This document shows positions 22,274 through 57,535 of a stretch of 64,000 nucleotides of DNA, in pieces. Made by a program: the position numbers and the translations under genes. The notes under the pieces were generated by a model. That model did no database searches. It was not told the origin of the DNA and saw only the letters and a program-made list of their open reading frames with translations. The DNA is from Bartonella henselae str. Houston-1 (lineage in GTDB: Bacteria > Pseudomonadota > Alphaproteobacteria > Rhizobiales > Rhizobiaceae), in the NCBI RefSeq assembly GCF_000046705.1, contig NC_005956.1, positions 1-64,000 of the forward strand. Direction: 5' to 3'. Within the stretch, counting starts at the first letter, position 1; the number at the start of each line of letters is the position of its first letter.

Positions 22274-23771
22274 ATGTAAAAAAAATTATTTTGGGCTTAT
22301 TTAGAGGGTTTTCGTATACGACAACCGTTCTTAAATGTTTGCAAAACGAGCAAGGCACTGAAATTGTAGTACATCTTAATTTAGAGCAGAGGAAAGATTT
22401 AGTGCGTGCGTTTTGTAAAGCTGAAATGCTGGGTATTAAAGGAATATAGAGTGTAGGTTTGCGTGAAGAATCTATGCACGATTTTATTTTTCTGATGTTT
22501 CGAGCGAATGCAGCTTGTGAATTGATCTACCTTTTGAGGACGTCTGCTTGTCCGCTTTTTTCAAATTGCCTTAAAAATTGCCAAGGAAACGGGAGCAGAT
22601 GTTTTTGTTATTGCCGATGGGGCGACAGGAAATGGTAATGAACAAGAGAATTTTAAGCTTTTCGCTTATGCACAGAATCCTAATATCAAAATTTTGCTTC
22701 ATGGCGTAATAGGTTTTTTCGAAGTTTGACGGATTTGATGAGTTTTGCGCATGCACTTCAAATTCCGAGGGAAGAAGCTAAGTAAAGCGAGGCGTCTTTT
22801 TCGGTTGATACAAATTTGTTTTATTTATCTTCAGAAAAAAAATTTTGGAAGATCCCGCATTTCCTGCTCTTGAATGTGTTAGATATACAAACTCTTTAGC
22901 TGGAAGCTATCCCATATCAAATGATCATAATCACCATTGGTGATGTTCTATTTTGATCAGTGGAAAAGTCTCTCTCCTACGAATTTATTTTCTACACTGA
23001 ATCGATTATAGACAGAACAGTATTGGCCGTTTAGATTTGGTTAGAAATTGTTTTATCGTCATAAAGTTGCGCTTTATTTATGAGACTTAAAAGGAATAAT
23101 TCTTTTGACGGCTTATCGTGTAATGGAATCTTTAGTATTGGATAAGGGAGAGGTGCATTTGAAAGATGAATGAATGCTCCAGTAGGCACAATGCATTGAT
23201 TGATAAATATAACTCATAGTTTTGCAACTTGAATGAAAGTCCCAAATATCTTAAGATTCTCTTATTTCAAATATTCTTATTTGAATCAATTAAAATCACT
23301 TACTTGCACGTTACAAGCGGGGGTGGTGTGCATATAAACCAGTAAAAAGAGAGAATTAAAAAGGCCTCTTATGAACCGTCTCAATGCAAGGGTTGCCACA
23401 ACATTTTGAGCTGGTAAAGAGAATGATGGTGCCGGTTCGCTCCTTCATAAGTGTAAAGATGGTGGTGCACCATGGCTTTTAAGTTAAGCAAAACCATTTA
23501 TTATAGCTTTTAGTTTTTATCTGAGCGCAAAATGTTGCAGGCAGCTCTTGATTTATACAAGGAAAATGTTACAGGCAAAATTACATTAAAACTTTATAAG
23601 GGTAATGTGATGGCTGAAGGGTGCCAAAGCAAATAGTCACTTTACACCACTAAATTTGTAACCTTTAAGGATAATAAAGATACTTATGATCAAAAAGATG
23701 CAACCAGTTTTATGAAATTAAATTTCTCGCCTTTGCACATATTGGCAGCACATTTGCCAGAATTCAAATAA
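22274..23771 (+). pseudogene. argG: argG (argininosuccinate synthase) pseudogene, interrupted by an integrase-derived repeat
   Basis: Successive reading frames reproduce ArgG from start to finish: KKIILGLFRGFSYTTTVLK (the PP-loop SGGLDTS is destroyed), [77 protein letters not shown] and, after the insertion, [19 protein letters not shown] and [11 protein letters not shown] through YDQKDATSFMKLN. There are many stops and frameshifts, and the segment 23195-23490 is a foreign repeat placed between HLKDE(x)M and the IYYSFWF block. The gene cannot make the enzyme, so the last-but-one step of arginine synthesis is missing from this locus. Confidence 0.9.
23195..23490 (+). repeat. Integrase 5'-fragment repeat, copy A (inside argG)
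   Basis: It starts at the left edge shared with the other copies (ATTGATT..., about 170 bp of conserved non-coding DNA) and continues into the integrase 5' end. The initiator corresponding to ATG in other copies is AGG here. The coding remnant reads MNRLNARVATTF, stop, AGKENDGAGSLLHKCKDGGAPW, matching the arm-binding N-terminus of island-type tyrosine recombinases (…GLLLHKxKDGGAQW). It ends about codon 35, after which argG sequence resumes. Confidence 0.85.
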
Positions 23772-23846
23772 ACAATCTTATAAAATCATCCTTACAGTAT
23801 AATTAAAGAGATGATTTTGTATAAGACGTTCAGTTTTGTCATTTTT

Positions 23847-24011
23847 CTAACTTATTGATGTTGGTAAATAGTTTAGCTGTCCAATTTTTAGTTCAATGCT
23901 AGAAGATTTTTTTTCTTGCTGATAAGTGTAATAGGTAAAACCTATAATAATAGTAATTAAAACATCAATAATAAAAATGAGTAAATTACGTTCATGATAT
24001 TTGTACTTCAT
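23847..24011 (-). CDS. Possible small membrane protein or remnant
   Basis: A 54-codon frame reads MKYKYHERNLLIFIIDVLITIIIGFTYY-like sequence, that is a short basic head, one convincing transmembrane segment and a polar tail. A second hydrophobic stretch in another frame lies just upstream (about 24040-24110), suggesting a two-helix protein broken by a frameshift. No family is recognised and no strong ribosome-binding site is seen. Confidence 0.25.
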   Translation of the reverse strand: MKYKYHERNLLIFIIDVLITIIIGFTYYTYQQEKKSSSIELKIGQLNYLPTSIS

Positions 24012-55885: not shown

Positions 55886-56499
55886 AAGTTAATCCATTCC
55901 TGTATTTAATTTGCGATATTTCATCAGCTGTTTCAGAGCTTAATATTTTTGCCAGTTATTTATGGAATAACCACATTAAACGTTTACCGTATATCAGATC
56001 TATATTCAACATCTGTCGGTATAGAATAGGTAGAAGCTATCCATATTACACAATTACTTAGAACGATTTTTCATACGTAAACGATATTATCCTGTTAGGT
56101 TGCGTTTTTAGATGTAAAAAGAGGCGCAGAGAGTTTAATGAAATTTATCTCTACGGATTATTAATATTTGAGGATAGGATAGTTACAGTGAAGCATTTAG
56201 ACAAACAGTAAAGTGTTATTGCGTCTTTATGATGAGTAAGAAATGTATAGCAAGCTAACGAAATCAATTTTTTTGCTTATAATTTTAAATTGCCTAAAAA
56301 CTGACAATGTATCCTTACATCATATTTTTTTCGCACATAGAAGGTTTGAGAAAATTGTGTGGTGATGCCAAAAATGTGTACAGCTTTTTGTTTGTATAAA
56401 AAGAAGAATTAGAATGTGTTTTTAAGAACAAAATTTGAGTTTGTTTAGAAGAAAAGCATCAGAAATGTTTTTAATTCAGAAAAGATATTGAAAAAAATA
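55886..56499. other. gyrB upstream gap
   Basis: About 600 bases of AT-rich DNA. The gyrB promoter must lie here. No convincing ORF, repeat or RNA was recognised; a 3' part of the integrase relic may extend a little way in. Confidence 0.35.
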
Positions 56500-57535
56500 A
56501 AATGAACGATATGCCAAAAATACAGAGATTTTTTTTATTCTCCGTTTTTGCTAATGATATGCATCTTATTCTCAATAGGGTTAGTTTGTATAGCGCCGTC
56601 AATCTGATTTTATGAATATGGTACAAAGGATTTGTACGAACACTTGTAAGGATAAGAAGATGCAAAGCCAGTTATGTCATTGTTATCGTTTTACTCAGTG
56701 TCTGATAAAAAGCCGGAATATCTCTCCAATCCATAGCTGGTCTATTAGTGGTTTTATCACCTTGTTTTCTTAGTAAAGCTCGTGCTTTTTCTTTTTTTTG
56801 TAAATCAATATCTAAACCTAGCACAGCAGCGTGTTTGAGATAAAGATTAAGGCAGTTTAGTGCTTTCTCTGCTGTTGCAGCTTTTGTATGCAGATCGGAA
56901 GAACATTGCGTATATCTATTTGTATAATCTCTGAAAAGGCAACAGCCTCATTGGGGAAGAATATGAAGTTGTACAGATAGAAACCAGCTCCCAGCCTTAT
57001 CATCACCCTTTAATTCGGCTTACGGCTTTCAAAAGCATTGAAGAGTAATATCTTATTCAATAATGGAGAGTGCGCATTGCCTCACATTTTTGTTTCTCAT
57101 GTTCTTAATAGGGTCATATGCCTCAACGTAAAACAGGACATCATTCTGTATTTCATTCACACACTTGTTTTAAAGAGACATCCAGCACACCTAAGCTCCT
57201 TTCACGATGATGACGGCGTTTTTTGTGAAGGATATAATGGGAAATCCGTTGTGCACTACCCTCTTTATGCTTATGAAGGAGTAAGTCGGCACTGTTATTC
57301 TCTTGGTTAGCGCAAAATGTTGTGACAGCCCTTGGTACTTAAGATGGTTCATAAGGGGCATTTTTATTTTTTTAAGTTGTTTTTATCCGCACGCCGCTTC
57401 GCCCCCTTTTTGTAACATGCAAGAGAATGGTTTTGAGTGATTCACGATGAGAGTGTTTGAGATGAGAAGATCTTAGGATATTCGGAGTTCTCATTCAAAT
57501 TGCAAAGCGATGAATTATCTTTATAAATCAGTGTT
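56500..57535 (-). pseudogene. Tyrosine recombinase (island integrase) pseudogene, repeat copy F (longest)
   Basis: From the common left edge near 57532 the upstream block leads to an ATG at 57361 and MPLMNHLK. Then, across frames: SADLLLHKHKEGSAQR, LGVLDVSLKQ, AGSWFLSVQLHILPQ, HTKAATAEKALNCLNLYLKHAAVLGLDIDLQKKEKARALL, PAMDWRDIPAFYQTLSKT, LLILTSVRTNPL and QIDGAIQTNPIENKM. This is the arm-binding domain, the core-binding domain and the beginning of the catalytic domain, including the conserved catalytic-Arg region (LTGVRTxPL-like). The rest of the catalytic domain (His, Tyr) is not found. It shows what the shorter repeat copies derive from. Confidence 0.88.

Follow-up and report, generated by a model that had tools for sequence, protein, structure and literature searches.

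The first 64,000 bases of the single contig of the 1,931,047-bp Bartonella henselae genome, hereafter called the window, contain six blocks in which non-coding DNA leads into the 5′ part of an integrase gene. All six begin alike and stop at different points. What kind of sequence has one end that is always the same and another that is nearly never the same, and how did it come to be there six times within such a short distance? The question bears on the history of mobile DNA in this genus, as blocks of this kind can be the remains of larger elements or the direct products of an insertion process.

The six integrase fragments of the window

A BLAST comparison with 300-bp flanks links all six copies to one another (E 1e-9 to 1e-28 among the matches listed), and wherever an alignment extends as far as the edge, its start lies no more than a few bases from 23195, 36061, 42768, 47517, 48559 or 57530. 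The common left edge proposed in the original prediction is therefore real. One integrase family stands behind all six copies, and in each a leader of 168 bp precedes the integrase 5′ part (Table 1). In the numbering of intact elements from another Bartonella genome of 2.71 Mb (G026), on which the left starts fall between -6 and +3, copies 1 to 6 end at element positions 293, 353, 284, 367, 494 and 964, with other measurements putting the end of copy 3 at 269 instead. Since the integrase ATG lies at +168, the cut-offs correspond to about codon 34-39 up to codon 265, in agreement with the earlier estimate of differing 3′ stops. The edge had however been set 7-8 bp too far in. Across 86 measured copies, in fact, information starts at -7, with the consensus ACAAnAY directly before ATTGATTTATAA, so that the true left terminus lies 7-8 bp further out; beyond it, a mild A/T preference is all that can be seen.

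Table 1. Left-end copies of the window and the additional integrase fragment beside copy 4
Feature	Position	Strand	Composition
Copy 1	23187..23487	+	terminus 23187-23194, leader 23195-23362, integrase 5′ part to about 23487
Copy 2	36053..36402	+	left terminus, leader, integrase 5′ part
Copy 3	42530..42776	-	left terminus, leader, short integrase 5′ part
Copy 4	47159..47525	-	left terminus, leader, integrase 5′ part
Copy 5	48551..49035	+	left terminus, leader, integrase 5′ part
Copy 6	56563..57540	-	left terminus, leader, integrase 5′ part (ends near codon 265)
77-bp integrase fragment	47536..47612	-	corresponds to about 365-444 of the element; lies beyond the left end of copy 4

The sequences outside the edge had been described as unrelated. 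This holds for most flanks, which are unmatched, and flanks differ among the 37 to 86 copies compared, but it does not hold for all six: in copies 2, 3 and 6 another old repeat abuts the left edge, and next to copy 4 lies a fragment of integrase sequence. Specifically, only two flank matches are found among the six copies, one joining about 57590-57748 with 43091-43247 and the other joining the 77-bp fragment with the interior of copy 5, where it is 93.5% identical to 48908-48983. Because of this identity the fragment looks like a later arrival, and a circular permutation at copy 4 was consequently dropped. No other parts of the element were found within 3.0 kb downstream of the six cut-off points. 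Among 41 copies there are two exceptions, namely 1093632-, which resumes at element positions 1461-2077, and 1726074-, with a weak match near element position 4065. The neighbours in the window are ordinary genes, encoding for instance lysyl-tRNA synthetase, release factor 3, an AddAB-like nuclease pair and S-adenosylhomocysteinase, and the cut-off end of copy 2 extends into the 3′ end of one gene, located at 36397-36822 (-).

The element family in Bartonella

The window samples a much larger family. At a threshold of E <= 0.001, a DNA search of the B. henselae genome in which 40 of 88 candidates were scored gave at least 42 matches. The leader sequence is present in 39 of them and absent from a copy at 1012806 and from a tandem pair of integrase fragments at 1668 kb. 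A sequence-only model of the leader, built from 37 copies, gave 99 matches at E <= 0.1 (150 of 1,894 candidates scored), corresponding to about 97 places, as two of the rows are second pieces of other rows; the weakest of these places are uncertain. Hence the six copies appear to be members of roughly a hundred such scars in this genome. Moreover, matches to copy 2 occur in 43 of 71 Bartonella genomes and matches to the C-terminal half of the integrase in 52 of 71, the latter with a query that also catches related integrases.

Intact relatives were found elsewhere in the genus. G026 has 43 integrase matches, many with open frames near 390 codons, and all 21 places excised around such matches begin at the same left edge. 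In 15 whole elements of this genome the similarity reaches a common right end at 14.6-15.8 kb. By eye, conservation at the right end breaks off near ATTGTATTTTTCTT, and the terminal 14-20 bp next to the host vary between groups of copies, whereas the left end does not change; 10 of the 15 whole elements have what reads by eye as a 7-10 bp direct repeat at both ends, a signal that is weak or absent in the cut-off copies. The intact integrase contains PF13356, PF22022 and PF00589, all over the cut-off, and the window copies keep only its 5′ part. The element proteins scanned comprise this arm-type tyrosine integrase, DUF7146 and DUF3987 proteins, a type ISP restriction-modification enzyme (type IIG according to PADLOC) and three small beta-solenoid-like proteins. 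The element is about 15 kb long: behind the left terminus, the 168-bp leader is followed by the gene for the tyrosine integrase, those for the DUF7146 and DUF3987 proteins, that for the type ISP restriction-modification enzyme and several small genes, up to the right end.

The same leader is carried by intact integrases. A scan of named genomes returned 337 relatives, of which 80 were kept, all from Bartonella and including B. vinsonii, B. tribocorum, B. grahamii, B. elizabethae and B. rattimassiliensis. Five of the 80 were set aside, four because the match starts within the gene and one because its upstream sequence was too short, which leaves 75 loci from other Bartonella. The left-end motif is present in 74 of them, at 168 bp from the ATG in 57 and at 165-170 bp in 73, and in 62 of the 75 the integrase frame is 380 codons or longer. 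Outside the genus, the best integrase match in plasmid records is a Sinorhizobium meliloti replicon (63%), and phage integrases reach 42% among the matches listed. At the level of sequence, these data show a genus-wide mobile element with many left-anchored relics.

The protein content of the element also bears on one way of producing such relics. One sharp and one variable end are, in general, what LINE elements leave behind, and an antisense transcript primed at the left end and truncated by incomplete copying would give the same picture. No reverse transcriptase domain was found, though, among those element proteins that were scanned; the element has a tyrosine integrase instead, and most of its whole copies appear to end in repeats of 7-10 bp. 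A retroelement-like insertion consequently seems to us scarcely credible.

The leader itself could be the reason for the persistence of the copies. It had been thought more conserved than expected for random debris, as it would be if it were a functional RNA or regulator under selection and the integrase fragments mere passengers. It does look conserved among the B. henselae copies, and its first 20 bp are slightly better kept than the remainder (93% in A/T columns). Nevertheless, the expectation was not borne out by the closest genome compared (G023; 90.6% identity over 56 kb), which carries all six copies. Between the two genomes, the leaders of copies 1-5 are 77-89% identical and the integrase parts 77-86%, against reference values of 81-94% for nine non-coding flanks and 94-95% for three coding genes; the leader of copy 6 is excluded, its match being non-orthologous. 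In other words, orthologous leaders diverge like the non-coding DNA nearby, and selection on the leader is not supported. Column conservation tracks A/T content in leader and integrase alike: A/T consensus columns are 88% conserved both in the leader (positions 21-168) and in the integrase part, and G/C columns 69% and 74%, respectively. An RNA gene was likewise discarded, as RNAalifold gives no consensus structure (0 predicted pairs for 37 copies) and no Rfam match at the gathering score exists in the window. A functional leader is therefore most improbable; leader and integrase part decay at the pace of non-coding DNA, in a manner that looks neutral.

Origin of the truncated left ends

If the copies were whole islands from which the rest was later lost, both ends should survive in similar numbers. 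With a 316-bp query of the right end, a DNA search of B. henselae gave four clear matches (E < 1e-26; 40 of 52 candidates scored), the next one having E 0.15, against at least 39 leader-bearing left ends. In G026, at least 150 left-end matches, two of which are pieces of one copy, stand against 24 right-end matches (40 of 82 candidates scored), the left count coming from the leader model, which is possibly more sensitive than the DNA search used for the right end. Left ends thus strongly exceed right ends among the matches, about tenfold in B. henselae. The C-terminal half of the integrase is found in 13 places of this genome (18 rows), 11 of them just downstream of a left end; the other two are a nearly intact gene without leader at 1013 kb and a different integrase at 372 kb.

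Further information comes from the junctions with the host. Copy 1 is absent from four comparison genomes (G013, G064, G070 and G032), which have an empty site; in G013 and G064 host similarity ends at 23177 and restarts at 23483, with three bases between, and an 8-bp target repeat is plausible. Disruption of a live gene by copy 1 was rejected, as in G013 too the site has no frame of 100 codons or more. Copy 5 is a clean insertion against G032 only, the alignment with G070 being poor. These are the only two sites readable on both sides, and they display no visible loss of host sequence. The cut-off of copy 2 (36402), which is also a gene end, meets host similarity at 36399-36404 in five genomes; in G032 the same interval holds a separate left-end copy that points the other way. 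For copy 4, the cut-off at 47159 compares with host similarity at 47157 in G013, 47143 in G070, 47130 in G032 and 47096 in G064. For copy 6, the cut-off at 56563 compares with 56553 in G032 only, similarity to the other genomes ending 390-550 bp away. Altogether, the cut-off end falls at the host junction in copies 1 and 5, and in copies 2, 4 and 6 in at least one comparison genome each; where the alignments can be read, cut-off ends do sit at the host junction. The interval of copy 3 in G070, G013 and G064 is occupied by a diverged left end in the same orientation, adjoining the host flank, and for this reason copy 3 may predate the divergence of those species. Apart from copy 3, the readable insertions seem to date to the common ancestry of the B. 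henselae genome and G023.

The cut-off points themselves are not evenly spread. Truncations were measured in 86 of the better-scoring copies, 62 of 64 tried in B. henselae plus 24 in G026, including four from G026 stretches that had been retrieved for a different purpose. The cut-offs span element positions 168 to 1426. None of the 86 lies inside the leader, 37 lie within the next 168 bp and 60 before position 504; 13 of the 24 copies in G026 and 15 of the 62 in B. henselae end at 205-275. In the leader model, 84 of the 99 rows span from position 20 or less to 157 or more, and 11 end before position 157, two of these continuing in a second row. In at least one case, 602253- of G026, the end is merely the start point of another copy. 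A common right edge at about 285 was discarded, because it came from the end of the query and ends vary when all copies are compared with all. Two candidates for young truncated copies in G026, 2608692- and 2379095+, were also discarded, as by eye they proved to be older copies that later whole elements had interrupted.

These observations weigh on the idea, put forward in the original prediction, that the blocks are scars of repeated island insertion. Its first half is upheld by the intact islands with the same leader elsewhere in Bartonella, whole elements in G026 included. Its second half, that random deletion later removed all but the left end, fits poorly. It is true that the B. henselae genome is smaller than that of G026 and has only the four right ends, that leaders and integrase parts decay neutrally, and that deletions do occur: the orthologue of copy 6 in G023 has lost most of its leader, which means that left ends also decay. 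Random deletion, however, should leave relics of right ends about as often as of left ends, and it should neither stop at the host junction nor spare the leader; G026, rich in whole elements, also has far more left than right ends. We hence regard this explanation as unlikely.

A second suggestion, that of a non-autonomous repeat spread from an integrase, stands in part. TTTTG followed by A or C occurs at codons 15-16 in 32 of 50 left-end rows of B. henselae, and 20 of 25 aligned TTTTG rows read TTTTGA, a stop, as does copy 1. The same motif is found in none of 45 intact integrases and in only three rows elsewhere (two from G023, one from G038). In a tree of 147 left ends, 34 of the 50 B. henselae rows fall in a group without intact members, weakly supported (SH-aLRT 81). 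From this distribution we infer that most B. henselae copies probably descend from source elements with a broken integrase, the stop at codon 16 implying that the enzyme probably acted in trans. On the other hand, the copies stop at many different points and are not, therefore, copies of one short repeat.

What determines the second end? The 7 bases outside the left terminus were compared with the intact integrase sequence at the truncation point, with permuted pairs as reference, in a test designed after two coarser target-repeat tests on 41 B. henselae copies had given non-significant results (p about 0.08 and 0.22-0.28). The resemblance is 4.27 against 3.97 of 7 bases (n = 86, p = 0.0015), a small effect, which is also seen in G026 alone (p = 0.0035) and in B. 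henselae alone (p = 0.013). The same 7 bases resemble the right-junction sequence as well (p = 0.004, n = 86; 0.049 and 0.033 for G026 and B. henselae separately), with p = 0.14 for the right junction in the younger G026 copies alone.

Taken with the left-end excess, these results suggest that the six blocks, old solo left ends of the 15-kb Bartonella element, may have been produced by one-ended insertion by its integrase. We put this reading at about half, because microhomology joining, random deletion and integrase-mediated deletion after insertion could leave similar traces. Also counting against it are the old repeat DNA beside the left end of copies 2, 3 and 6, the loss of most of the copy 6 leader in G023, the small effect in the 7-base test and the small number of sites readable on both sides; the single comparison genome behind copy 6 and the possibly greater age of copy 3 lower our confidence slightly. 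In the proposed mechanism, the left end would be the one fixed place at which the integrase recombines. The leader would probably carry predicted arm-binding sites of the integrase, explaining why measured copies keep it whole, and the position of the second crossover would vary, being set by partial homology to the 7-bp target. A second site just outside the right end would move the whole element; one inside the integrase gene would leave a left-anchored fragment, dead on arrival. The second junction could be formed either at insertion or by a later deletion mediated by the integrase, and the enzyme would probably be supplied in trans, given a source integrase that stops at codon 16.

Microhomology joining of broken DNA would leave traces similar to those of one-ended insertion. 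A broken linear piece bearing the left end, which the integrase joins on that side while microhomology end joining seals the break on the other, would have a variable second end, short homology at the junction and a clean site, as observed. Breaks in a 15-kb element should nonetheless give longer pieces than the 60 of 86 that end before position 504, and the clustering of G026 ends at 205-275 also speaks against such a capture, to which we accord a low probability. Returning to one-ended insertion by the integrase, the broader proposition would be that this enzyme recognises the left end alone, selects the second junction by short target homology and litters genomes with LINE-like left ends, on a scale of about 97 places in B. 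henselae and at least 150 matches in G026. In this general form the proposition is tentative, though it merits consideration.

Comparison with known systems and implications

A literature search covering the available portions of PMC2697382, PMC3610622 and PMC5387305, among others, did not find a description of this family, of which an earlier mention is possible. Among the closest known systems, compared here by description, is the fha-repeat of B. grahamii; the available part of the account makes no mention of a common left edge, a leader or solo left ends (PMC2697382). The Brt RNAs of B. henselae, as described in the part of the source at hand, are structured, about 200 nt long and present in nine copies within 277 kb, each copy being followed by a helix-turn-helix gene (PMC5387305). 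By that description (PMC5387305), the present family is set apart from them, as it has no consensus structure, occupies about 97 dispersed places and has measured copies that run into an integrase. A MITE was rejected too: the second end varies from 168 to 1426, and no terminal inverted repeat is seen, since that end is integrase sequence.

The element resembles integrase-bearing genomic islands and P4-like satellites, with their Arm-DNA-bind_3 integrases, in having a PF13356, PF22022 and PF00589 integrase beside the left end, apparent short direct repeats at the ends of most whole copies, and a cargo of replication type together with restriction-modification. It differs from them in its many dispersed sites and in the great surplus of left ends that lack a right end. 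Insertion at a tRNA gene, frequent though not universal among islands, does not apply here either, there being no tRNA or tmRNA gene in the 64,000-base window. Conjugative transposons of the Tn916 and CTnDOT types use a tyrosine recombinase with relaxed target choice and have a variable short sequence at their ends; the element shares these features. As generally described, those transposons move as whole elements with two fixed ends, and we know of no description of them that includes large numbers of solo left ends.

If the left-anchored reading is true, integrase fragments in other genomes may be products of insertion and not remains of deletion. The family would in addition provide markers by which island activity in Bartonella can be dated, and the mechanism would become testable in those species that have young copies. 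One precise end, one variable end and many dead truncated copies are otherwise typical of LINE retroelements and of one-ended transposition of the Tn3 and IS91 types, from which the element differs in its enzymes, the sole recombinase seen being a tyrosine integrase. A tyrosine integrase would then be able to make truncated insertions in bulk, which, to our knowledge, are known only from retroelements and one-ended transposition.

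Near-identical and internally duplicated copies

Three left-end copies of the B. henselae genome, namely 57532-, 69726- and 1903970+ (at 57.5, 69.7 and 1904 kb, respectively), are separated in the tree by branch lengths of 0.004. As they are nearly identical, unlike the rest of the family, they were therefore recently duplicated. Another left-end copy, L024 (1668224-1668775), carries its integrase part three times in tandem, corresponding to element positions of about 179-304. In addition, the region upstream of the S-adenosylhomocysteinase gene contains 73 bp (42096-42168) that show 91% identity to 41325-41400, within the coding sequence of the same gene.

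A second repeat family beside the left ends

A second, heavily decayed repeat family (60-67% identity between copies), in which no open frame was found, is present in the window next to three of the left-end relics. Several left-end copies elsewhere are directly abutted by this repeat as well.

Second decayed repeat in the window
Coordinates	Position
34700-36050	directly adjoins left end of copy 2
42777-43330	directly adjoins left end of copy 3
57542-58394	directly adjoins left end of copy 6

Nested, paired and cargo-bearing elements in a comparison genome

In the Bartonella genome G026, the whole elements 2394987-, 1883488+ and 2593702+ appear to have entered the integrase genes of older family copies, since their left flanks, as judged by eye, consist of integrase sequence. 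Moreover, two left ends at 931107 and 942794 face each other across 11.7 kb, and the intervening stretch is itself largely an inverted repeat. About 4.6-9.9 kb from their left end, the G026 elements encode a large single-chain restriction-modification enzyme, classified as type ISP by Pfam and as type IIG by PADLOC, which may represent a multicopy defence cargo.
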